From positions 62,001 to 126,000 of the forward strand of contig NZ_JBFCVL010000004.1 in NCBI RefSeq assembly GCF_040712075.1: a stretch of 64,000 bases of DNA, read 5' to 3'. Below, piece by piece: positions 48,676 to 64,000 of this stretch. Position numbers and translations under genes: made by a program. Under the pieces are notes generated by a model. It ran no database searches. It was not told the origin of the DNA and worked only from the letters and a program-made list of their open reading frames with translations. Origin of the DNA: Fodinicurvata sp. EGI_FJ10296. GTDB lineage: Bacteria > Pseudomonadota > Alphaproteobacteria > DSM-16000 > Inquilinaceae. Positions within the stretch are counted from its first letter, which is position 1; every line of letters starts with the position of its first letter.

Positions 48676-50047
48676 ATGAACGATGCGCCGCCGGCACAGC
48701 GACAAACGGTCGATACCGCTGCCATGGCGCCCCCCGATGCGACCGAACCGGCCAGACCCGCTCCGGAAGGGCCGCACGTGGTCATAGTCGGGGCCGGCTT
48801 CGCGGGTCTCTACGCGGCCAAGGGCCTCGGACGGGCCGGAATCGCTACGACGATCATCGACCGGCAGAACTATCACCTTTTCCAGCCATTGCTGTACCAG
48901 GTCGCAACCGCTGCATTGTCGCCCGCCGATATCGCCGAACCCATACGCAGGGTGTTGAGACCGTATGACAGCATCGATGTCGTCTTGGGTGAAGTGGTCG
49001 ACGTCGACACTGCGCATAAACAGGTACGCATGGCCGATGGTAGCGCTATCGGCTACGACCGTCTGATCCTGGCAACCGGCTCGACGCACAGTTACTTTGG
49101 TCATGACGAATGGGCGCGCTATGCGCCGGGCCTGAAAACGATCGACGACGCGCGGCTGATCAGGTCGCGCTTGCTGATGGCGTTCGAGAAGGCCGAACGG
49201 GAGCAAGACCCGGTCGAACAACGCCGCCTGTTGACCGTGGCGGTCATCGGCGGCGGGCCGACGGGTGTGGAAATGGCCGGCTCCATCGCCGAACTCAGTC
49301 ATTATACCCTGGCGCGCGATTTCCGGCACATCCAGCCTGACCGGGCACAGGTCCTGCTGATCGAAGCAGGACCTCGCATTCTCGCCCCGTTTCCGGAGGA
49401 TTTGGCGGACTATGCCCGGCGCCGACTTGAAAAACTGGGCGTCTCCGTGCGGGTCAGCCAGGCCGTGGAATCCGTTCAGGAGAAGGGAATCGTCATAGGC
49501 GGCACCTTTGTGCCGGTGGGACTGACTGTCTGGGGGGCCGGCGTGGCGGCCTCGCCAGCCGGACGCTGGCTCGGCGTTGAAACCGATCGCGCCGGCCGTG
49601 TGGCCGTCGACGAGACGCTGGCCATCGGGTCCCTCGATGGCGTCTTCGTGCTGGGCGATCTCGCCCTGGCGAAAGACGAAACCGACAAGCCATTGCCCGG
49701 CCTGGCGCAGGTCGCCAAACAACAAGGCGAGCATCTGGGCCGGGAATTGAGCCGGAACCTGCGTGACGGTACCGCCATGGCGCCGTTCCGGTTCCGAAAC
49801 CGCGGCAATACGGCCATCGTCGGGCGGCACGCCGCCATATTCGATTTCGGACGCCGTCGATTGAAGGGGGGGGCTGGCCTGGTTCCTGTGGGCGGTGATT
49901 CACGTCTATCTGCTGGTCGGGTTTCAGAACCGCCTCACCGTAACGGTGCAATGGCTGTGGCGCTACATCACCTATCAACGCGGCGCCCGGCTCATCACCG
50001 GAGGCACCGGGACCGACACCGATCAGGCAAGTTCCAGGGAACAATAA
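48676..50047 (+). CDS. type II NADH dehydrogenase, interrupted by a frameshift at a G8 tract
   Basis: Single-subunit flavoprotein passing electrons from NADH to quinone without proton pumping. FAD motif VVIVGAGFAGLYAAKGL at ~35-51, NAD motif VAVIGGGPTGVEMAGSIAEL at ~190-209 and GLAQVAKQQGEHL. At 49866-49873 eight G residues shift the frame. Without the shift the protein continues as LAWFLWAVIHVYLLVGFQNRLTV and ends at 50047, the typical C-terminal membrane anchor. With it, ~95 unrelated residues follow to 50169, overlapping the next gene. Either a sequencing error, a real mutation or a slippage switch. Confidence 0.85.
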
Positions 50048-50165
50048 CGGTCAGTCGTCGTTACCTACCCGTCAGCAACGCCGGCCTCAGCATATGGCCG
50101 GTGATGACCAGAGGCGGGAAGGCAGCGGAAATCTGCCCTGGAAGCACTTATTTGCGGAGATTCAA

Positions 50166-51041
50166 ATGAAAAAACTCTTGTCGTCGACGGCACTCATCGC
50201 CACGGTCATTGCAGTCGGACCAACCTTGACTTTGGCCCAATCAGAAGAGCAACAAGAGAATCAGCAACAGGAGCAGGAGCAGCAGGTGGCCCAGCAATGC
50301 CTGGACGATCTGAACACGCTGACCGCTCGGATGAACGAAGAAGGGTTCTGGGTAGCGGGGTCGACAAGCCGAGGTTTCGGCATGCCCGGACAAATGATGC
50401 CGGGCACGATGCCTGCTGACGATTCGATGGCCGAGCCCCCTGCGGAGGGGGAAGCGATGCCGGCCGAAGGGCAGCAGCAGTTTCAATCGCCACGCCAGGA
50501 CATCGGTGTGCTGTACCAGGCGGCCCGGATCCTCGCGCGGAAAGGCGATGAAGAAGGTTGCCAGCACCTGCTGACCGAGATCACGGACTCGTATGATATG
50601 TTTGCCGAGAATCTGCGGGAAGCCGGCATCGACCCGGCGAACGTCACATCGTGGCGTCAGGAACAGCTCGCTCAGGCGCAACCGATCTCAGAGGTTGAAG
50701 GGCTTTCCTCGTATACAATCGATGACATCGAGGGGACGGACGTCCGGAATCCCGGTGACGAACAGTTGGGCAGCATCAGCGATGTCGTCTTCGAACCGGG
50801 CTCGGGACAGGTTTCGTATGTTCTCCTGGCGCGCGGCGGATTTCTGGGTATAGGCGAAGACCACATAGCCGTACCCTGGGACCAGCTCCGTGCCACGCCG
50901 GGCCTCCAGACGCTGGTGCTCGACATTTCCGAAGACGAAATCGAAAATGCACCAACAGTCGACCCGGACGCGTTCAACAACCTGCAAACCGGGCAAAGCG
51001 AACGCGAACGCATCGATGAGTTCTGGGGTCAACGTCAGTAA
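50166..51041 (+). CDS. exported PRC-barrel domain protein
   Basis: 291 residues with an N-terminal signal peptide (KKLLSSTALIATVIAVGPTLTLA). A Gln-rich stretch and a Pro/Met/Glu-rich segment follow, then a helical region (~110-165) and a C-terminal PRC-barrel domain (~190-265) with IEGTDVRNPGDEQLGSISDVVFEPGSGQVSYVLLARGGFLGIGEDHIAVPWDQL. GGAG lies seven bases before the ATG. PRC-barrel proteins of this type are common in the alphaproteobacterial periplasm, with no known reaction. Confidence 0.87.
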   Translation: MKKLLSSTALIATVIAVGPTLTLAQSEEQQENQQQEQEQQVAQQCLDDLNTLTARMNEEGFWVAGSTSRGFGMPGQMMPGTMPADDSMAEPPAEGEAMPAEGQQQFQSPRQDIGVLYQAARILARKGDEEGCQHLLTEITDSYDMFAENLREAGIDPANVTSWRQEQLAQAQPISEVEGLSSYTIDDIEGTDVRNPGDEQLGSISDVVFEPGSGQVSYVLLARGGFLGIGEDHIAVPWDQLRATPGLQTLVLDISEDEIENAPTVDPDAFNNLQTGQSERERIDEFWGQRQ

Positions 51042-52504: not shown

Positions 52505-53341
52505 TCAACCCTGCGCCCGGCTTCCGGATCCCGCGGCAGTTCCCGTCGCCGGTCCGCCGGTTCCGGAACGCAATTCGAGCCGCCTGAGAAAACCGGCGAA
52601 AAAGGCCAGCCCCACGATCAGGAAGCCAATGGCGCCGGGCGCCCACATAAGGGCCGCCGCAAGGCGCTGATCATCCAGATCCGAAAGCCCGAACGGTATG
52701 GTGGTCGTGGCGTGAAAACCGTGCCAGGCGGTTTCGGAAAACATCAGGATGGCGCCGTAGATCGCCATCTGAAAGCCCGTACCTATTGCAGCGCCGACCG
52801 CCGCCCCCGGCGCTTCGTCCATTCGCGATATTCCGTCCCACAGCAGCAATGCCGCCGCGATCAAGGTAATCTGCATCAGCCAATATGCGGCATCCGAGTA
52901 AAGCGTCAAGGCATAGGGGCCCGGCAGATGCCACCCCCAGAATGCAACGGCGAAGAACAGCGCGCCGCCGGCGCAGGAAATTCCCGCAGGTAACCGCGGA
53001 ACCTGTCGCGATAGCGGCCAGAACAGACAGCGGTGCGCCCCGCCTGCGACCAGCAGCGGCGCGGCAATAAGCGCCAGCACGACATGCTGGCCCATCCGCA
53101 CCGAGAACAGCGCCATGGAAAGACTGCAGATCGGTGAGACAAAGACCGTCGCCACGACGGCCCACCCGGCCATGCCCGCGCGGCGATCGCCATGCGAGAC
53201 GCCGGTCCGGGGCGCCGCCATAGCGTAGTGAACGACAAGGCCTGCAAGGATAGCGATCAGCACCGGATCGAGATTCCAGTTCCGCCACACCTCTTCCGGC
53301 ACTGGCGGTATACCGCAATAGGGAATCGGGGCATCGGTCAT
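52505..53341 (-). CDS. ctaG: cytochrome c oxidase assembly protein, CtaG (Caa3_CtaG type)
   Basis: Polytopic membrane protein of the Caa3_CtaG family, 278 residues with about seven helices. Signatures: NLDPVLIAILAGLVVHY, SPICSLSMALFSVRMGQHVVLALIAAPLLVAGG, and FWGWHLPGPYALTLYSDAAYWLMQ with conserved His and Trp. Family members support assembly of caa3-type oxidases, probably in copper handling. GAGG precedes the ATG by about eight bases. Last gene of the oxidase operon. This family differs from the Cox11-type CtaG. Confidence 0.9.
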   Translation of the reverse strand: MTDAPIPYCGIPPVPEEVWRNWNLDPVLIAILAGLVVHYAMAAPRTGVSHGDRRAGMAGWAVVATVFVSPICSLSMALFSVRMGQHVVLALIAAPLLVAGGAHRCLFWPLSRQVPRLPAGISCAGGALFFAVAFWGWHLPGPYALTLYSDAAYWLMQITLIAAALLLWDGISRMDEAPGAAVGAAIGTGFQMAIYGAILMFSETAWHGFHATTTIPFGLSDLDDQRLAAALMWAPGAIGFLIVGLAFFAGFLRRLELRSGTGGPATGTAAGSGSRAQG

Positions 53342-53356
53342 CGGTTGATCCTCGGT

Positions 53357-53695
53357 TCAGGTGCAGAGTGCCTCCAGGCTGAAAGCCGGATAGGCGACAA
53401 ATGCCAGGGACACCAGCGACAACCCTGCAATCGTCATGGCAGCAGCGTGAAGTGTCCGGGACGTCCCTTCGTATCGAGCCAGGACGACACCGTGCCAAAC
53501 CATCTGGACAACGATCGCGACGGCGGCGATCGCGGTCGCCACGGCCACCCAGAGCCGGATATCGGCAACCACCCGCCCCTCGCAGACAAGAGCCGACAGA
53601 ATATAGACCGCGAGAAAATGGGCACTCCAGACCAGCAGCGGGATCGTCAGCGCCACTCCCAGCATTCCTGGTGCACTGGCAACGCGGTCAGCCAT
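53357..53695 (-). CDS. small three-helix membrane protein of the oxidase operon
   Basis: 112 residues with three predicted membrane helices: LGVALTIPLLVWSAHFLAVYILSALV, AVATAIAAVAIVVQMVWHGVVLA and AAAMTIAGLSLVSLAFVAYPAF. The ATG at 53695 has GGAGGA upstream and overlaps the end of the oxidase I-III gene by eight bases. Position and size suggest an accessory (subunit IV-like) oxidase subunit, but no family signature confirms this. Confidence 0.75.
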   Translation of the reverse strand: MADRVASAPGMLGVALTIPLLVWSAHFLAVYILSALVCEGRVVADIRLWVAVATAIAAVAIVVQMVWHGVVLARYEGTSRTLHAAAMTIAGLSLVSLAFVAYPAFSLEALCT

Positions 53696-56375
53696 CCGAT
53701 CCTCCGGTTTCCAACCGTGACGCCGGCGCCGGTTGCTCCGACTGCCCCAACAACGGCGGCCCGTACTGGATGAGCGCGAGCGCAAACAGCGTGTAGATGG
53801 TAATCACCCTTGCGAAGGTCGCACCGCTCATCAACGGCATGCCTGCCTGCGGGCGGAGCCTTTTTGCAGTCAATCGAGCGACGACGAACAGGTACCACAC
53901 GGCAGCCACCGTCATCAGAAGCGCAACGAATGCGCACACCAGCCACACGGTCGCGCCATAAGCGTCTGCCGTGGGATCGATTTCCCACGGCGCGGCGATC
54001 AGCCCTGCCGCTGTCGCTGCCGCCAGCAGAAGGCAAAGCACTGAATACAGAAGTATCAATGCCGGGACTTGTTCCGCATGCCGTTCCTTATTGCGGTCGC
54101 TGCGCCCGTGACGCTCTGCCTGGCCGGATGCCGAGGCGCCGTGGTGCGCGTGTCTGCGCAGACCAAGGTCGGCGACGGTGGCGACGACGGCCAGCAGCAC
54201 GGCGGCGGCGGCGGCCGCGACGAGTGCCGTCTCGTTCGCGCCGGAGTCCGCCGGCAGAAACGCCGGGTCCACCGTCCAGAGAAAAAGATAGCCGAACATC
54301 AGCGAAAAATAGAGCGACGAGATGACGAGAAGTGCACCGGCAACCCCGAGCCAGGATGGTGAAGCCCGCGAAACGATGTCCACGGGCAGCACCATGCCCG
54401 AGATCGCGGCCTGTTCGGTTCCCGAGTCCGCCGGCTCCCAAAGCCAGGCCGTGAAGGCCGCAAGGACCAGCAGAACCCCGACGCCGGCGACGACATACTG
54501 GGAGGCCAGAACCGAGGTGAAGAAGATGCCCGTGGCCACCGCCGCAGCGACCGGCCACCACGACGGCCGGGGCAGCCGGATCACCTGCACCGGATCGCCC
54601 GTGACCGGATGGGTGCCCATGGTTTCGCGCTTGCCGTCGTTTCGAAGCGGGATCCAGCCGTTCCGCATTTCGTCTTCATCGGCGAGTTCGCTCTGATGCC
54701 AAAGCGGATCGCGGCTGGTGATCGTGGGAACGGCATTGAAGTTGTAGTTCGGCGCGACTGGCCGATGGAGCCATTCGAGTGTCGAGGCCCGCCACGGATT
54801 GCGCGGCGCCCGGGGACCGAAATGCCACGACCAGGCGGCATCGATGATGAAGATCAGCACCCCAAGCGCCAACACAAAGGCGCCCAGCGACGAAATGAGA
54901 TTGAGGCCGTCCCAGCCGAGGCCTTCGGGATAGGTCGAGACGCGGCGCGGCATGCCGACGAAGCCGGTCAGGTGCATGGGCAAAAACGCAACGTTGAATC
55001 CGATAAACATCAGCGTGAATGCGGCAACCCCTGCAACCTTTGATGTCATCCGGCCGCAGACATGAGGAAACCAGTAATAGAACGCGGCGAACAGCGGAAA
55101 CACCATGCCGCCGACAAGGACGTAATGGAAATGCGCAACCACGAAATAGGTGTCGTGCGCCTGCCAGTTATAGGGCGCGGACGCCAGCATAATGCCGGTG
55201 ACGCCGCCGGCCACGAAGATGAAGAAGAAGCCCAGAATGAACAGCATCGGCACTTCCAGCCTGACCCGGCCGGTGGAGATCGTTGCGATAAGGCAGAAGA
55301 TCTGAATGCCGGTGGGAATGGCCACCGCCATGCTGGCACCGGAAAAATAGGCCAGCGATATCTGCGGCAAGCCGGTCGCGAACATGTGATGGACCCATAG
55401 TCCCATGGACAGGAACGCCATGGAAACGATGGCTGCCACGATCAGGTAATAGCCGACCAGCTGCCGACCGACGAAGGTCGGAACCATCGTCGCAACCATG
55501 CCGGCAGCGGGCAGAAAGATGATATAGACCTCCGGATGACCGAAAATCCAGAACAGGTGCTGCCACAACAGCGGGTCGCCCCCGCCGGTGGGATCGAAAA
55601 ACGGCAGGCCCAGCAGGCGCTCGCTCTCCAGCATGATCGAGCCGATGATCAGCGGCGGAAAGCCCACCGCAATCATGAAGGTCGTCGCCAGTATGTACCA
55701 CGCAAAGATCGGCATCCGGGTCAGCGACATGCCCGGCGCGCGCGCGGAAAGGATCGACACGATGATCTCGACCGCCGCCGTCACCGACGATATCTCGATG
55801 AACGTAATCGCTATCAGCCAGAAATCGGTGCTCAGGCCGGGGCTGAACGCCTTAGACGACAGTGGCGTGTATATGAACCAGCCACTGTCGGGCGCCGCGC
55901 CGACGATGAAACTCGACAGCAGCAGCAGGCCGCCCAGCAGATAGCAGAGATAGCCATAGAGGCTCATGCGCGGGAAAACCAGGTCGCGGGCGCCCAGCAT
56001 CATCGGCAGAAGGTAGATCGCCATGCCTTCGAGGATCGGGATGGCAAAAAGGAACATCATCACGGTGCCGTGCATCGTGAAGATCTGGTTGTAGACGGCA
56101 TCGCTCAAAAAGGTTCCGTCCGGCGTCATCAATTGCAACCGGATCATCAGCGCCAGAACGCCCCCGATCAGAAAGAATGCGAACCCCGTCCCGATGAAGC
56201 GCAGGCCGATGGTTCGGTGACTGACGCCGGTGATCGACCGGATGCCGCCAGGTGTGCCCCAGATTTCGCCGAAGGTGCGGGCGGGTTCGCCCCGGCGTCG
56301 GTCGGGGAACGGCTCGTCTGCGCCCGGTGGAGCACCGGACCGGACCGGGTCTGCCTGGCGGGCGCCGACGGTCAT
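53688..56375 (-). CDS. cytochrome c oxidase, fused subunit I-III
   Basis: 895-residue haem-copper oxidase. Subunit I spans ~45-525: haem a ligand His102, HPEVY at 280-284 with the CuB His-Tyr pair and Glu282, CuB His329-His330, and haem ligands His415 and His417. Asp131 of the D-pathway entrance is present, but PTGIK is PTGIQ (Gln358). Residues ~530-605 link to a subunit III-like part with about seven helices (~605-875). Overlaps subunit II by four bases (ATGA). Fusions of this kind occur in caa3-type oxidases. Confidence 0.95.
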   Translation of the reverse strand: MTVGARQADPVRSGAPPGADEPFPDRRRGEPARTFGEIWGTPGGIRSITGVSHRTIGLRFIGTGFAFFLIGGVLALMIRLQLMTPDGTFLSDAVYNQIFTMHGTVMMFLFAIPILEGMAIYLLPMMLGARDLVFPRMSLYGYLCYLLGGLLLLSSFIVGAAPDSGWFIYTPLSSKAFSPGLSTDFWLIAITFIEISSVTAAVEIIVSILSARAPGMSLTRMPIFAWYILATTFMIAVGFPPLIIGSIMLESERLLGLPFFDPTGGGDPLLWQHLFWIFGHPEVYIIFLPAAGMVATMVPTFVGRQLVGYYLIVAAIVSMAFLSMGLWVHHMFATGLPQISLAYFSGASMAVAIPTGIQIFCLIATISTGRVRLEVPMLFILGFFFIFVAGGVTGIMLASAPYNWQAHDTYFVVAHFHYVLVGGMVFPLFAAFYYWFPHVCGRMTSKVAGVAAFTLMFIGFNVAFLPMHLTGFVGMPRRVSTYPEGLGWDGLNLISSLGAFVLALGVLIFIIDAAWSWHFGPRAPRNPWRASTLEWLHRPVAPNYNFNAVPTITSRDPLWHQSELADEDEMRNGWIPLRNDGKRETMGTHPVTGDPVQVIRLPRPSWWPVAAAVATGIFFTSVLASQYVVAGVGVLLVLAAFTAWLWEPADSGTEQAAISGMVLPVDIVSRASPSWLGVAGALLVISSLYFSLMFGYLFLWTVDPAFLPADSGANETALVAAAAAAVLLAVVATVADLGLRRHAHHGASASGQAERHGRSDRNKERHAEQVPALILLYSVLCLLLAAATAAGLIAAPWEIDPTADAYGATVWLVCAFVALLMTVAAVWYLFVVARLTAKRLRPQAGMPLMSGATFARVITIYTLFALALIQYGPPLLGQSEQPAPASRLETGGSDG

Positions 56376-57319
56376 CGCAGACTCTGCAGATAGGCGGCCA
56401 CGGCGCGCAACGTCGGCCCGTCGATGTCAGTATAGGACGGCATCTCGGCCCCCGGTTTCATGCGCTGAACGTCGACGATCCATCCGGCCGTGTTTCCGAT
56501 GGTGTTCGGCCATATCCCGGCCCCCATCCGGTCGCGTTCGCCATAATTGCTGAGATCGGGGCCGAGGCGGCCGCCTTCGGCGACGCCGCGGATTTCGTGG
56601 CACGCCGCGCAGCCGAGGTCGGAAAATGCCTGGCGACCGGCACGAAGCTGCGGATGGTCCGGCGTCAGCCGCGGCCGCGTCTGCTCGTCCCGCCATTCCT
56701 CAAAGGCAGCGGGTGCGTGCGCCACGACCTCCAGCGCCATACGTGCGTGCTGCTGGCCACAGAATTCGGCGCATTGACCGCGAAAGCGCCCCGGCCGGTC
56801 GGCCACAAGGACAAGTTCATTTTCTCTGCCCGGTATCATGTCACGTTTGCCGCCCAGTGCCGGCACCCAGAACGAATGAATGACGTCGTCGCTGAGCAGT
56901 CTGAATCGAACAGGACGGCCTGTCGGGATATGGATTTCGTTGGCGGTGCGAATGGCCTCCTGCCCACCCTCGGCAGGGTAGCGGACATCCCACCAGAACT
57001 GCTTGCCGGTGACTTCGATCACCAGTTCATCCGGTCCTGCCAGGGCAGATACGGCGCGGGTGACATCGCTGTTGACAGCGATGAGGCCGACGAGCACGAC
57101 TAGGGGAAACGCCAGACCGCCAGTCCAGATGATCCAGACCGGCGACCGCTCCAGCCTGACGAACCAGGCGACAACCAGCGCAAGCATGGTGATCGCCACG
57201 ACGGCCACCATCAGGATCAACATCCCCATATGCAACCAATGAACCGAGGCCGCATGCGGTCCCGCCGGATCCAGCGCGGTCTGCGGCCACTCAGCTTGCG
57301 AGAAAACCCAGTCGGTCAT
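56372..57319 (-). CDS. caa3-type cytochrome c oxidase subunit II with cytochrome c domain
   Basis: 315 residues. Two membrane helices (~31-53, 63-82), a cupredoxin domain with CuA ligands His148, Cys183, Glu185, Cys187, His191 and Met194, and a C-terminal class I cytochrome c domain with C237-x2-C240-H241 and a later Met ligand in GAEMPSY. It accepts electrons from soluble or bound cytochrome c and passes them to CuA and haem a. Overlaps the genes on both sides by four bases. Confidence 0.95.
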   Translation of the reverse strand: MTDWVFSQAEWPQTALDPAGPHAASVHWLHMGMLILMVAVVAITMLALVVAWFVRLERSPVWIIWTGGLAFPLVVLVGLIAVNSDVTRAVSALAGPDELVIEVTGKQFWWDVRYPAEGGQEAIRTANEIHIPTGRPVRFRLLSDDVIHSFWVPALGGKRDMIPGRENELVLVADRPGRFRGQCAEFCGQQHARMALEVVAHAPAAFEEWRDEQTRPRLTPDHPQLRAGRQAFSDLGCAACHEIRGVAEGGRLGPDLSNYGERDRMGAGIWPNTIGNTAGWIVDVQRMKPGAEMPSYTDIDGPTLRAVAAYLQSLR

Positions 57320-57699
57320 TTCACCCCTTCATAGAGATAGGTGGCGATGTCCCGGGCTTCGGGCTCGCCGAGGCCCATATCCGGCATTGCGGTGTCCGGG
57401 TTGAAGCGCGGCGGATCGCGCAGAAATGCCACCACATTGCCGGGAGTGTTGGGAAGACCGCCGGCAATGTACCGACGGGTTTCGAATCCTGTCAGGGGCG
57501 GGCCGACGCGGCCGCGCGCGCTGCGCATGGCGCCGATTTCATGGCAGGCCCCGCAGCCATACGCGGCGATCAGTTCCCGGCCGTGTCCGGCGTCCCCGTC
57601 GATGATGCGCAGGCGCGGATCAGCCCTTTCTTCGGGCTGGCAAGCCGACAACATCAATAACAGCGGCAAGATCCGAAGTGCGGCCGCGGACACCCGCAT
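57316..57699 (-). CDS. monohaem cytochrome c lipoprotein
   Basis: 127-residue class I cytochrome c. The signal peptide ends in lipobox LSAC20, so it is likely anchored to a membrane facing the periplasm. Haem attaches at C49-x2-C52-H53; the sixth ligand is probably Met in TAMPDMGL. Begins seven bases after the dihaem cytochrome gene and overlaps subunit II by four bases. It probably links the dihaem cytochrome to the oxidase. Confidence 0.9.
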   Translation of the reverse strand: MRVSAAALRILPLLLMLSACQPEERADPRLRIIDGDAGHGRELIAAYGCGACHEIGAMRSARGRVGPPLTGFETRRYIAGGLPNTPGNVVAFLRDPPRFNPDTAMPDMGLGEPEARDIATYLYEGVK

Positions 57700-57705
57700 T
57701 GGCGC

Positions 57706-58737
57706 CTACTCCCCGGTATCGCCAGCTTGGCCGCCGCCATTCTGATCCCCGCCGTTCTCATCCTCACTTTCCTGAATCTGCTGGGAACCGCCGCCGCCTT
57801 GCTGCCCTGCGTCCTGCGCACCGTCACCCTGACCGTTGTCCGGCTCGCCCACGCCTTCGACCGGCCCGGCGGCATCCTCGGGCAGTGGACGTTCGGCCGG
57901 CTCGGGCCCGGTCGGATAAAACGGGCGCGAGCCGGACCCGGCACCCAACTGCTGACTGAAATATTCGGCGTCACTACCGCCCACGGGACGGACGCTTTCG
58001 TAGTAGCGGGCAACCGCCCGAATGTCGCGGTCCTCCATCTTTTGGGCGATCGCCGTCATGACCCCCATCGGGTCGTTGTCGCGCGTTCCGTCGCGGAACA
58101 GTTCCAGCTGCAGGGCCGTATAGGACGCATACTGGCCGGCAAGTCCCGGCACCGACGGCGGCAGTCCCTCACCCTGGGGGCCGTGGCAGTTCACACAGGC
58201 CGGAATGCCCTTTTCCGATGAACCGACAGCGGCCAGTTGCCCGCCCCATTGCAGTTCGAGGCCGCCATACTCCCCTGCCCGCGGATAAGGAGCCTGCATC
58301 ACCGCATAATAGCTGGAGACCGCTTCGCGCTCCCTGTCGAGCAGGTTTTCGGCAATCGGCGTCATGATGTCGTTCGGCCGCGCGCCCGACGCATAGTCGT
58401 TCAGTTGCTTGTACATGTACCAGGCCGGCATTCCGGCGAGCCGGGGGAAAGCGCCGGAGCCCTCACCCGCACCGCTCGCGCCATGACAGGTGAAACAGGC
58501 CATGCCGGCGCCGCCGCGTTGTGACCCGCCCATGGCGACCAGACGTCCCTCGGCAAGCATGTCCACGTCTGGCTGGCGTTCCGCCGTGGCCAGAAAGGCA
58601 ACGCCGGGATTCTCCAGGCGCTGGGCCATTTCCCGAACCCCCGGTCCCTCCAGGTCCTGAGCGATGGAAATCATGCCGAAAGCCAGAACGATGGTACCGG
58701 CGCCGGCCGCAGCGAGCGGCAGTCGAAATCGTCTCAT
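57706..58737 (-). CDS. dihaem cytochrome c (c4-like)
   Basis: 343-residue exported dihaem cytochrome. The N terminus has a signal peptide or anchor (LPLAAAGAGTIVLAFGMISIA). Haem sites are C81-x2-C84-H85 and C181-x2-C184-H185, each in a c4-like domain with conserved GMPAWYMYKQLNDYASG and GLAGQYASYTALQLELF. Residues ~262-343 form a Gly/Pro/Asp/Gln-rich disordered tail. It follows the GMC dehydrogenase gene by 21 bases and is the probable electron acceptor of that enzyme. Confidence 0.92.
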   Translation of the reverse strand: MRRFRLPLAAAGAGTIVLAFGMISIAQDLEGPGVREMAQRLENPGVAFLATAERQPDVDMLAEGRLVAMGGSQRGGAGMACFTCHGASGAGEGSGAFPRLAGMPAWYMYKQLNDYASGARPNDIMTPIAENLLDREREAVSSYYAVMQAPYPRAGEYGGLELQWGGQLAAVGSSEKGIPACVNCHGPQGEGLPPSVPGLAGQYASYTALQLELFRDGTRDNDPMGVMTAIAQKMEDRDIRAVARYYESVRPVGGSDAEYFSQQLGAGSGSRPFYPTGPEPAERPLPEDAAGPVEGVGEPDNGQGDGAQDAGQQGGGGSQQIQESEDENGGDQNGGGQAGDTGE

Positions 58738-58758
58738 GGGTAACAGCCTCCAATTCCA

Positions 58759-60531
58759 TCAGCGGCCCATCAGCGGTCGGGGATCGTTCAGGTAGTCGCG
58801 CTTGATGCGGTCGAGGGTCCAATAGGCAAGCCCCATCAGCGGCCCTGTCGGGTTGTAGCCGAGGTTTTGCGGGAACAGGCAGGCGCCGAAGACGAAGACG
58901 TTATGCTGCCCCCATGCCTGACAATATCGGTTGACGGCACTGGTGGACGGGTCCGACCCCATGACGGCCCCGCCGGTGTTGTGCGTCGTCTGATAGGGCA
59001 CGATCGAATAGTTGTCGTCGGCAGACCGCGATACCGAATAGGACGACCCGCCCATGGCGCGGGCGATTTCCTCGGCCCGGTCGGTCACATGGCGCGACAT
59101 CCGCCGGTCGTTATCGGGGAAATCGAAGGTCATCCGCAACAGCGGGCGGCCATAGGGATCTGTATAGGTCGGGTCGAGGTCCAGGTAATTGCCGCGCGTC
59201 GCCATCGACGACCCGTGGATGACCAGGTTCGCCGTCGACAGATAGTTGCGCCGCACCGCCCGCTTCCAGGCCAATCCCCATCCGGGGGTCCCTTCCGGCG
59301 TCGGATGATATCCGATCGGCCGCCCGTTGGTCTGAAGACACGCGATATAGCCGCCGCCGACAAAGTCGAGTTCCGAATGGTCGAAATTGTCGCCGTTGTA
59401 ATCATCGACGACGGTAGCGAGCGCACCAGCGCCCATGAACGGATTGAAATTGTAGCGGCCGTCGTAGAACACACTGATCGACGACATCGTCTGATAGGCA
59501 TAGTTGCGGCCGACAACGCCCTCGCCCGTCGACGGGTCATAGGGTTCGCCGATACCCGACAACAGCATCAGATGAACGTTCCAAAGCCCATAGGCGCAAA
59601 GAAGGACCATATCGGCCGGCTGCTCGTAGGTGCGGCCGTCGGACGCGACATAGGTGACCCCGGTCGCCGTCTGGCCGTCATCGGCGAGGTTCACCCGCGT
59701 GACGTTGGCATGGGTGCGCAGTTCGAAATTCTCATGCCCCCAGATCCGGTCGAGGACGCAGATGATCGGATCGGCCTTGGCGAAATAGCCGCAGCCGAAT
59801 CGTTCGCAGAAGCCGCAATACGTGCACGGATGGAGTTGAGCGCCGTACGGATTCTCGTAATGCACGGTCACGTTGGCCGACGGCATGATGAACGGGTGGG
59901 TGCCCACTTCGCGCGCGGCGTCGGCGAACATCGCACCGGCATAGTGTTGTTTCATTGGCGGCGTCGGATACTCTTCGGATCGCGGTCCTTCGAAGGGATT
60001 GCCGGCCTCCCGGATTTCGTCGTTCAGATTACCCGCTCGCCCGGCACAACCGGCTACCTTCTCGAAAAAATCAAGATGCGGCTCCAGTTCGTCATAGGTA
60101 ACGCCCCAGTCCTGGACCTGAAGATCGTCCGGAATCGCGTCGCCCCCGTATTTTTCTTCGTAATGAGTGCGCATAGTCAGGTCGCTGGGCAGCGGCCGCC
60201 AAAGCTGGCCGTTCCAGTGAACGCCCGCACCCCCGACACCGGTGCCGGGCAGGAAGGATCCAAGCCGGCGCATCGGCAGCGCGGTCTCGTCCTGATTGTT
60301 CCGGAAAGTCAGCGTCAGATTGCTGGGCTCGATCATCAATTCGTGTCGCTGGCCATAGCGCAGTTCGTCGTGCATCTGCGGCGCCTGAAAATCGGGCGCG
60401 TCGTGCCGCATGGCGCCACGCTCCAGAACAACGCATCGCTGGCCCGCATTGGCCAGTTCGTAGGCCGCCGTCAGCCCTGTCCAGCCCGCGCCGACGATAA
60501 CGATGTCCGTCTTCGGCAATCTTGTCGCCAT
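58759..60531 (-). CDS. GMC-family flavoprotein dehydrogenase (gluconate/glucose dehydrogenase alpha-like)
   Basis: 590-residue FAD enzyme. FAD-binding DIVIVGAGWTGLTAAYEL at ~9-26, GGAGVHWNGQLWRP at ~100-113, and a C-terminal region with HNTGGAVMGSDP and GHN-like GQHNVFVFGACLFPQNLGYNPTG bearing the active-site His/Asn. A motif C236-x2-C239-x2-C242-x4-C247 resembles the iron-sulfur segment reported for FAD-dependent glucose dehydrogenases. The ATG at 60531 shares one base with the subunit 3 stop. Expected to oxidise a sugar, sugar acid or alcohol outside the cytoplasm. Confidence 0.92.
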   Translation of the reverse strand: MATRLPKTDIVIVGAGWTGLTAAYELANAGQRCVVLERGAMRHDAPDFQAPQMHDELRYGQRHELMIEPSNLTLTFRNNQDETALPMRRLGSFLPGTGVGGAGVHWNGQLWRPLPSDLTMRTHYEEKYGGDAIPDDLQVQDWGVTYDELEPHLDFFEKVAGCAGRAGNLNDEIREAGNPFEGPRSEEYPTPPMKQHYAGAMFADAAREVGTHPFIMPSANVTVHYENPYGAQLHPCTYCGFCERFGCGYFAKADPIICVLDRIWGHENFELRTHANVTRVNLADDGQTATGVTYVASDGRTYEQPADMVLLCAYGLWNVHLMLLSGIGEPYDPSTGEGVVGRNYAYQTMSSISVFYDGRYNFNPFMGAGALATVVDDYNGDNFDHSELDFVGGGYIACLQTNGRPIGYHPTPEGTPGWGLAWKRAVRRNYLSTANLVIHGSSMATRGNYLDLDPTYTDPYGRPLLRMTFDFPDNDRRMSRHVTDRAEEIARAMGGSSYSVSRSADDNYSIVPYQTTHNTGGAVMGSDPSTSAVNRYCQAWGQHNVFVFGACLFPQNLGYNPTGPLMGLAYWTLDRIKRDYLNDPRPLMGR

Positions 60532-61271
60532 CACCCTGCCTCCCCTGTTGCCGCCGAAGCGGCCCCAGCGGGCGCCATGCCGCCAGGCGATATCCGGGGC
60601 GGAATGCCCAGACCCGGTTGCCAGGCGATCCCCGAGGGCGGCCGATGGTATGCCAGATCGTAGCGGTCGACTTCGTCGAGATAATAGGCGTGAGCACCGG
60701 GAAAACCGACCATCCGCCAGCCGGCGTGGTCGCGGTTGCCATTATAAACGGGGTCGGAGAAATACCCTTCGATGGTTGCGGCAGCCAGCAGGTCGAAAAA
60801 GGCGCCGCCTGGAATCTCCCCCGCGGCGCGTACCCCTTCCTCCAGTTCTGTCAGCACCAGGTCCATATCGCCGGGCTGCAGTCCGGCAAAGCCGCCTTCA
60901 CCGATTGCCTCGTCCAGGCCCGCGATCGCCATTCGGAATACTTCCGCTGGCGGATGTGGCAATTGATACCCCTGCATGGCCGTACCTTCCGGATGCGGCC
61001 CCCGCATATAGAACCGCTCACCACGCCCGAACCCTGTCGCCATTTGCAGATCGATGTAGTCGACGACGCCGGCCTGCGACGCACTGGGAAATTCGTCTTC
61101 GGGGATCAGCCGATCGCAGGCGGCCGTCAGAAAGCGGGCTTCGGCGTCCGACAGAAAGAAATAGCGGCCGCCTCCTTCGGTCATTCGCTGCCCCGTCGCG
61201 AGAGACGGGCAGAAGGCGACGATGCTGGAAGAAGCCATGAGTGTCATGAACGACCGGCGTCGCATCCGCAT
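60531..61271 (-). CDS. gluconate 2-dehydrogenase subunit 3 family protein (Tat signal)
   Basis: 246-residue small subunit. The N terminus MRMRRRSFMTLMASSSIVAFCPSLA is a twin-arginine signal; in this enzyme class the small subunit carries the folded flavoprotein out with it. Family segments: FFLSDAEARFLTAACDRLIPEDEFP, AGVVDYIDLQM, FFDLLAAATIEGYFSDPVYNGN and GWRMVGFPGA. GAGGAGG lies upstream of the ATG at 61271. First gene of the operon; a longer upstream frame is not family-like. Confidence 0.92.
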   Translation of the reverse strand: MRMRRRSFMTLMASSSIVAFCPSLATGQRMTEGGGRYFFLSDAEARFLTAACDRLIPEDEFPSASQAGVVDYIDLQMATGFGRGERFYMRGPHPEGTAMQGYQLPHPPAEVFRMAIAGLDEAIGEGGFAGLQPGDMDLVLTELEEGVRAAGEIPGGAFFDLLAAATIEGYFSDPVYNGNRDHAGWRMVGFPGAHAYYLDEVDRYDLAYHRPPSGIAWQPGLGIPPRISPGGMAPAGAASAATGEAG

Positions 61272-61472
61272 GAGTTGCCCCTCCTCGATTGTTCCGAGCC
61301 TCGATCCGAACCGCCGCGACTGCTGGAAGTTCCACCCGGCGCAACAAGAATTCGATCGGTGACCATTCGGCGCCTCTTTTGTCCATCGGGGCCCGGATCT
61401 GTGGAACATTGCAAGGCTCCGCCGGTATTCCGGACTCACCCGACGATGATGGGCCGAACACAGGAGCAGAAA

Positions 61473-62124: not shown

Positions 62125-62502
62125 TCAGAAGCGGCCGAGTGAGGCCTCTGACGTGCTGGACCGATGGGTTTTGGTCATAATGCCGATGCCAATTTCCAGC
62201 AACCCGACAACAAGATGCGGCCAATAAACGATGTCGGCGAATCCGAACAGCCACGGCGATACCGCAAGCAGTGCACCGCCAGCGATATCCAGTCCCAGAT
62301 GGGTCGGCATCGGAATTACGGCCGCAACACCATACTCATAATCCGTCATCAGGCTGTAGACGATGACAGCGATACCCAGGATCACTGGCAACCAGTGCCC
62401 AATTCCTCCATAGGCGAATCCCAGCAACCACGGCGCAAGGATCAACAGAACGCCCACGATGTAGTCGATTGCGCCGTGGATTTTCGTCGGAATGAATCGC
62501 AT
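62125..62502 (-). CDS. SPW repeat-containing membrane protein
   Basis: 125-residue protein with four hydrophobic helices in two SPW-type repeats: IHGAIDYIVGVLLILAPWLLGF and HLGLDIAGGALLAVSPWLFGF, each followed by a second helix. This PF03779-like arrangement is known mainly from proteins of unknown function. AGGAG lies upstream of the ATG at 62502. First of a run of small minus-strand genes. Confidence 0.85.
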   Translation of the reverse strand: MRFIPTKIHGAIDYIVGVLLILAPWLLGFAYGGIGHWLPVILGIAVIVYSLMTDYEYGVAAVIPMPTHLGLDIAGGALLAVSPWLFGFADIVYWPHLVVGLLEIGIGIMTKTHRSSTSEASLGRF

Positions 62503-63295: not shown

Positions 63296-64000
63296 TCAGT
63301 ACCGAAAGATGGCGGCAATTTCCGGAAAAGACCCGATGCCATCCGGTTGTGAAAACACGATGCCGCCCCTGAGCAAGGTCTCGCGGATCGCGGTCTCGAC
63401 AAGGTCTTCCGGTTCGGCATCACCCGTGGCCGTTCCCGTCCCGGCCTGATTGGCGGCAGCAGGAACCTCGCCTGCGGACGGCCTGCGACCGGTAGCCACA
63501 AACAGGGTTTCGACCCTGCCGTCTGCAGCCGCCGAAGCGATCGTTTCCGCGTCGTCCGACGCGGTGTCGTCACCCTCGCCCATCCGCATCCGGAACCGCT
63601 CCATCGCGGCCCGCCGCCCTTGATCCAGCCGGGCTTCGACCAGATCATACGCGCGGGCATGCAGCGTTTTTTCGTCCATCGACGTGGGATGTTCGCTGAT
63701 CGCCGCTTCCATCAGGCCACCATGGCCGATGTGGCGCCGTAGCAGACCAAGCAGGAATTCGTCGGCTGCAAGAACCAGCGGCGCCGTGTCCCCGGCGAGA
63801 ATCTTGTCAACGGCGGATGCAATGCGCCGCACGAACTGCTCGATCTGCTCGCGCTGTTCGTCCTGGGGATCCTGACCGTGGTACAGGATAGTCTCTGCCC
63901 CCCTCCCGGTCGCGTGATAGCGCAGCGCGTTCTCGAATTCGGTGCGGTTCAGAAATTCCGCTGCCGTGCGCTGAAGACGCTCGTCATGGATCTCTTCCAT
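63296..64000 (-). CDS. baeRF-family (bacterial eRF1-like) protein, N terminus outside the window
   Basis: At least 234 residues, running off the right edge; the true start lies beyond 64000. The C-terminal part matches baeRF family 3 proteins, bacterial relatives of archaeo-eukaryotic release factor domains: LVLAADEFLLGLLRRHIG, ARAYDLVEARLDQGRRAAMERF, ADGRVETLFVATG and DLVETAIRETLLRGGIVF. Such proteins are proposed to act on stalled ribosomes or tRNA, mostly without direct proof. Separated by ~100 bases from the small membrane gene downstream. Confidence 0.75.
   Translation of the reverse strand: MEEIHDERLQRTAAEFLNRTEFENALRYHATGRGAETILYHGQDPQDEQREQIEQFVRRIASAVDKILAGDTAPLVLAADEFLLGLLRRHIGHGGLMEAAISEHPTSMDEKTLHARAYDLVEARLDQGRRAAMERFRMRMGEGDDTASDDAETIASAAADGRVETLFVATGRRPSAGEVPAAANQAGTGTATGDAEPEDLVETAIRETLLRGGIVFSQPDGIGSFPEIAAIFRY

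Follow-up and report, generated by a model that had tools for sequence, protein, structure and literature searches.

A conserved operon that may join a Tat-exported GMC flavin dehydrogenase to its own caa3-like oxidase in Fodinicurvata sp. EGI_FJ10296

Can a single operon carry electrons all the way from a periplasmic substrate to oxygen? This question is raised by a minus-strand operon at positions 61271-52505 of a 64,000-nucleotide stretch of DNA from Fodinicurvata sp. EGI_FJ10296 (the window), in which genes for a flavin adenine dinucleotide (FAD) dehydrogenase of the GMC family, two cytochromes c and a caa3-type oxidase directly adjoin one another. An earlier note on this DNA, made from the sequence alone, had suggested that they form a self-contained chain that may bypass the quinone pool and the bc1 complex. 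Our analysis favors, with a probability of roughly 0.6, the view that the operon is a dedicated periplasmic respiratory module leading from the dehydrogenase to O2.

The eight genes are packed with overlaps of 4-8 bases or short gaps, and they are given here in transcription order with their Pfam matches, together with the sites in and before them that the argument uses.

61309..61333, minus strand: promoter-like motif GGAACTTCCAGCAGTCGCGGCGGTT, of the form GGAAC-N17-GTT and the EcfG/general-stress type, beginning 62 nt upstream of the first ATG
60531..61271, minus strand: small subunit with a twin-arginine signal (hitchhiker subunit), Gluconate_2-dh3 (PF13618, E 8e-26)
58759..60534, minus strand: GMC-family FAD dehydrogenase without a signal peptide of its own, GMC_oxred_N/C (PF05199, PF00732)
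59791..59826, minus strand: Cys cluster CTYCGFCERFGC in the GMC protein (Cys237, 240, 243 and 248), its CxxCxxCxxxxC pattern invariant in 78 of 78 orthologues
57706..58737, minus strand: dihaem cytochrome c of the c4 type with a signal peptide and an acidic C-terminal tail, Cytochrom_C with two CXXCH (cytochrome c4 6q2u, E 5e-27)
57316..57699, minus strand: monohaem cytochrome c lipoprotein with lipobox LSAC, Cytochrom_C with one CXXCH
56372..57319, minus strand: CoxB, CuA subunit II with a C-terminal haem c, caa3 type, COX2 plus Cytochrom_C (2yev_B, Thermus caa3 subunit II, E 4e-48)
53688..56375, minus strand: CoxA, fused subunits I and III, 895 aa, COX1 (E 3e-143)
55302..55304, minus strand: Gln358 codon of CoxA, at the site of the K-channel Lys (K362 in Rhodobacter sphaeroides)
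53357..53695, minus strand: small membrane protein with about 4 hydrophobic segments, no Pfam match and no family, with weak homologues in the corresponding position of orthologous operons
52505..53341, minus strand: CtaG-type copper assembly membrane protein, Caa3_CtaG (PF09678, E 3e-27)

From head to tail the spacings are -4 (small subunit/GMC), +21 (GMC/c4), +6 (c4/monohaem), -4 (monohaem/CoxB), -4 (CoxB/CoxA), -8 (CoxA/small membrane protein) and +15 bases (small membrane protein/CtaG), and inside the operon scans for sigma-70 promoters and terminators gave no signal above shuffled sequence. The whole is 9 kb long and its gene set is cofactor-complete. The earlier note had described eight minus-strand genes in this order with tight spacing, and this was confirmed, the largest gap being 21 bases; its eight gene identities proved correct by Pfam and by structure and profile matches, with the dihaem protein and the CoxA tail now sharpened. 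Its claim of a single operon is supported by the tight packing and by one conserved promoter-like motif at the head with none inside.

The dehydrogenase is carried by the first two genes. The ATG of the small subunit at 61271 is preceded by AGGAGGGG, and the protein begins MRMRRRSFM, a twin-arginine signal whose SRR-type motif is kept in orthologues. In the GMC protein, whose nearest solved structure is the large subunit of fructose dehydrogenase (E 2e-15), the catalytic His and Asn are invariant in 78/78 orthologues, and the Cys cluster, which aligns with the 3Fe-4S loop of the FAD-glucose and fructose dehydrogenases, is probably an Fe-S site. FAD-glucose dehydrogenase has a 3Fe-4S cluster and is exported with a hitchhiker subunit of the twin-arginine translocation (Tat) pathway (PMC6719666). 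The operon pair shares with the direct electron transfer (DET)-type FAD dehydrogenase complexes (Burkholderia FAD-glucose, Gluconobacter fructose and gluconate dehydrogenase) the GMC fold, the His/Asn pair, the Fe-S Cys cluster and a Tat-signal hitchhiker small subunit beside a signal-less catalytic subunit. It differs from them in its Cys spacing (CxxCxxCxxxxC versus CCx4Cx3C), in its distance in sequence and in having no trihaem subunit, the c4 protein and the monohaem lipoprotein being found instead. It would be expected to work like a DET-type FAD enzyme, yet with the trihaem subunit missing we do not file it in the three-subunit complex. A sugar as the substrate is a guess, the closest solved enzymes being fructose and glucose dehydrogenases that are too distant to predict from. 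Thermus thermophilus plasmid pTthSNM7-6b (L189 9001-10764) also carries a small subunit-GMC pair, with a GMC protein 58% identical to that of the operon; it adjoins a sugar ABC transporter and ribose genes, a case of cross-phylum transfer and a possible hint to the substrate.

The likeness of the dihaem protein to cytochrome c4 had been absent from the earlier description. In orthologous loci the usual partner of the dehydrogenase is a trihaem cytochrome, and this is swapped for c4 solely in the clade that has the operon. Cytochrome c4 is able to donate electrons directly to terminal oxidases.

As for the oxidase itself, CoxB has the CuA motif CAEFCGQQHARM and one CXXCH, that is, the sites for both CuA and haem c. 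The fused subunit III of CoxA went undetected by Pfam; its C-terminal 300 residues, searched as a 29-sequence profile, match Thermus caa3 I+III (E 1e-15) and Paracoccus subunit III (E 2e-15), and the AlphaFold model of CoxA (pLDDT 82, pTM 0.88) matches 2yev_A over 852 columns with a TM-score of 0.90 by target length. CoxA retains all haem and copper ligands and the equivalent of D132, and the haem/CuB histidines and the equivalents of E286 and of the cross-linking Tyr (Y288) are kept as H102, E282, Y284, H329, H330, H415 and H417. In the D-channel, Ile120 replaces N121 and Ser138 replaces N139. The operon oxidase thus shares with the caa3-type (A-family) oxidase of Thermus thermophilus the CuA subunit II with its C-terminal haem c, the I+III fusion and the fold, and differs from it in the Gln at the K-channel Lys site, in the replaced Asn/Ser residues of the D-channel and in being encoded together with a dehydrogenase and likely donor cytochromes.

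We surveyed these residues in 137 CoxA sequences (the operon CoxA and those of loci L062-L184 and L281-L286). The K-channel Lys is lost in 118 of the 137, with Gln in 115 and Ala, Ser or Gly in the other 3; in the 115 Gln-type sequences N121 is always lost and N139 and S142 nearly always, and all 19 Lys-type sequences keep N121, N139 and S142. The idea that K362 to Gln is special to the operon was rejected, this being a property of the whole caa3-like CoxA clade. By architecture and fold the operon oxidase is predicted to be caa3-like, and it does not pass as a canonical A1 enzyme with K- and D-channels; the host has a second caa3-like oxidase (G000:C3:6568-8748, L191), with CtaG upstream and no dehydrogenase of the operon's family adjoining; its nearest relatives are in Devosiaceae.

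The dehydrogenase and oxidase genes also stand together in other genomes. The order was first met outside the host in a plasmid collection, where tblastn found all eight genes in identical order on Dinoroseobacter shibae plasmid pDSHI02 (NC_009956), with 70% identity for GMC and 53% for CoxA over nearly its whole length. Close GMC relatives occur in 16 of 395 Rhodobacteraceae genomes; where GMC is at least 69% identical the operon order stands on one strand in 6/6 genomes, and at 51-57% identity in 0/9. The independent set is the operon of the window plus six Rhodobacteraceae genera, D. shibae (G701) being counted once. The arrangement is kept by several marine bacteria. The earlier note had proposed to look for the gene order in relatives, its absence to count as refutation, and six other genera carry it; its claim of a dedicated terminal oxidase co-encoded with the dehydrogenase is likewise supported. 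About 50 further GMC orthologues in other groups keep the small subunit-GMC pair, usually followed by the trihaem cytochrome and without the oxidase of the operon, and a CoxA-seeded scan of named genomes found the dehydrogenase in 0 of the best 80 loci. In D. shibae (L185 16789-18842) CtaG is directly followed by genes for a flavin monoamine oxidase family protein and a cytochrome c, which may represent a second dehydrogenase that delivers electrons to this oxidase.

The two trees agree. In the tree of the 137 CoxA sequences the operon and the six Rhodobacteraceae form one clade (SH-aLRT 99), and in the GMC tree the operon and the same six, plus Sulfitobacter pontiacus, form one clade with support 100; because both trees group the same genomes, we conclude that dehydrogenase and oxidase have travelled together. 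In S. pontiacus the same dehydrogenase and c4 lie close to a caa3-type oxidase that belongs to a different CoxA clade, and DedA-family and APC-family permease genes separate c4 from CoxB (L186 11593-13688). In Shinella and Rhizobium Q54 the small subunit, GMC and cytochrome c genes precede CoxB-CoxA genes of a third kind, and Sulfitobacter W027 has dehydrogenase and caa3-like oxidase genes in a divergent arrangement; the CoxA proteins of these three likewise belong to other CoxA clades. That one dehydrogenase is found next to different oxidases suggests that the two work together, though shared regulation would account for it as well. Genome G008, of the same family as the host, has the small subunit, GMC, c4 and monohaem genes running to a contig end and CoxB-CoxA on another contig; it was not counted because its CoxA falls outside the operon clade.

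At the head of the operon, the GGAAC-N17-GTT motif is unique on the minus strand from 61333 to the operon end. A GGAAC-N16-19-GTT motif lies 57-67 nt upstream of the first gene in 6 of the 7 operon loci, including D. shibae, G815, G729, G712 and G982, and it is also present in S. pontiacus; the upstream region of the G956 operon has no such motif. The spacers are unrelated in sequence between loci, and the background rate is 0.8% per 150 nt. The EcfG motif of Sphingomonas melonis reads GGAAC-N17-20-GTT and is enriched at up to 100 bp from the start (PMC6599016), and the operon motif agrees with it in form and in distance. Several extracytoplasmic function (ECF) sigma genes of the host genome match PhyR_sigma2, and stress-type neighbors (MgtC, PRC-barrel, superoxide dismutase, Dps, HdeD) lie in several operon-related loci. 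EcfG-type general-stress control of the operon, which the earlier note did not propose, is likely on these signs. Another EcfG-like motif, at 50038-50062 on the plus strand, closely precedes the gene of a PRC-barrel protein (50094-51041, plus strand); in S. melonis the genes under EcfG regulation include one for a PRC-barrel protein (PMC6599016).

How might such a module work? The operon would be transcribed as one unit from the EcfG-like promoter, within the alphaproteobacterial general stress response. The GMC flavoprotein would fold in the cytoplasm with the small subunit, be exported by means of the small subunit's Tat signal and oxidize a periplasmic substrate. Electrons would then pass from FAD through the Fe-S cluster to c4, and possibly also the monohaem lipoprotein, on to haem c and CuA of CoxB, and from there to haem a of the caa3 oxidase and O2, with CtaG aiding copper insertion. 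This is the simplest plausible route, drawn through c4 because the trihaem subunit is gone and the c4 protein stands in its place. On such a branch electrons would reach O2 with no need of quinone or bc1. From the earlier proposal of a self-contained chain, then, the single unit and the dedicated oxidase are supported, the gene order is conserved, and the bypass of quinone and bc1 by a dehydrogenase-c4-caa3 line is plausible only.

Several points weigh against so private a line. The host genome also encodes bc1, a canonical aa3, the second caa3-like oxidase and two bd oxidases, so the operon cytochromes could take electrons from bc1 as well. The missing membrane anchor of c4 cannot argue for independence from quinone; this argument was dropped because hydropathy shows no C-terminal membrane segment in 43 trihaem cytochromes of the orthologues either. 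One of the six Rhodobacteraceae operons (L282) keeps the order without a separate monohaem gene, and NepR, sought in the host genome with a 35-residue model, gave no match, so that stress control is unproven. It may be, then, that the dehydrogenase reduces a periplasmic cytochrome c pool also fed by bc1, with caa3 as a general alternative oxidase and co-location reflecting co-regulation under stress or starvation with no private electron line. The presence of bc1 and the other oxidases, the stress-type neighbors together with the stress-type conserved motif, and the case of S. pontiacus, where this dehydrogenase and c4 are paired with an oxidase of another CoxA clade, would all fit such a shared pool, but the same order and joint GMC/CoxA phylogeny in seven genomes and the swap of the trihaem subunit for c4 exactly in the operon clade do not, and we regard it as somewhat unlikely.

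That the dehydrogenase reduces ubiquinone, with electrons reaching caa3 through bc1, seems improbable. The membrane-bound dehydrogenases of acetic acid bacteria, including flavoprotein-cytochrome complexes (gluconate, 2-ketogluconate, fructose, sorbitol), do feed ubiquinone (PMC9171043), but here their multihaem subunit is absent, c4 standing in its place, and the operon has no recognizable quinone-reacting membrane protein. A chance or inert gene neighborhood without functional coupling is scarcely credible; for the order itself it is refuted, because six other genera retain that order, one of which carries it on a plasmid. The dedicated module from dehydrogenase to O2 is thus the reading we prefer; its most specific form, a stress-induced GMC to c4 to caa3 line that bypasses quinone and bc1 and whose oxidase, coming from a large clade without the canonical K-channel Lys and D-channel Asn residues, perhaps pumps fewer protons or uses another proton route, is tentative and, taken as a whole, rather doubtful.

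Among known systems, cytochrome oxidase (COX) operons of type a-II encode an A1 oxidase and frequently include a pyrroloquinoline quinone (PQQ) dehydrogenase (PMC4013037). Like the present operon, they group terminal oxidase genes with those for a periplasmic dehydrogenase and for cytochromes c, but they encode a PQQ enzyme and a COX1 of 630-670 aa fused to COX4, and the operon, with its GMC flavin enzyme and 895-aa COX1-COX3, falls outside that type. In methylotrophs, methanol dehydrogenase, cytochrome cL, cytochrome cH and aa3 form a chain in which a cytochrome c oxidase is fed without bc1. The proposed route resembles this in leading from a periplasmic dehydrogenase to a cytochrome c oxidase with no bc1, and differs in that the methylotroph chain has a PQQ enzyme, monohaem c cytochromes and an oxidase encoded outside the dehydrogenase operon. 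Every part of the operon is of a known kind. What is apparently undescribed, within the open-licence literature, is their combination: one conserved operon in which a GMC-flavin dehydrogenase is encoded together with a c4 and a caa3 oxidase of its own. In that literature we also found no account of the pDSHI02 operon as one system; its genes are annotated singly.

Around the operon, the window holds an SPW-repeat membrane protein gene (62125-62502, minus strand) and a baeRF-family protein gene (63296-64000, minus strand) upstream. On the plus strand at 48676-50169 lies a gene for an NADH dehydrogenase like NDH-2 (Pyr_redox_2), whose C-terminal membrane part is in another frame; the change near 49860 marks either a pseudogene or a sequencing indel.

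If the preferred reading is true, a complete substrate-to-oxygen chain would be held in one 9-kb operon, plasmid-borne in one genus, and would offer a test case for the pairing in bacteria of one dehydrogenase with one oxidase. The question of the bc1 bypass is directly testable, because D. shibae has the operon and gene-deletion methods for it are published (PMC5398030). Beyond the operon, the loss of the K-channel Lys across the caa3-like clade would give a starting point for asking whether proton pumping in these oxidases follows the usual mechanism.

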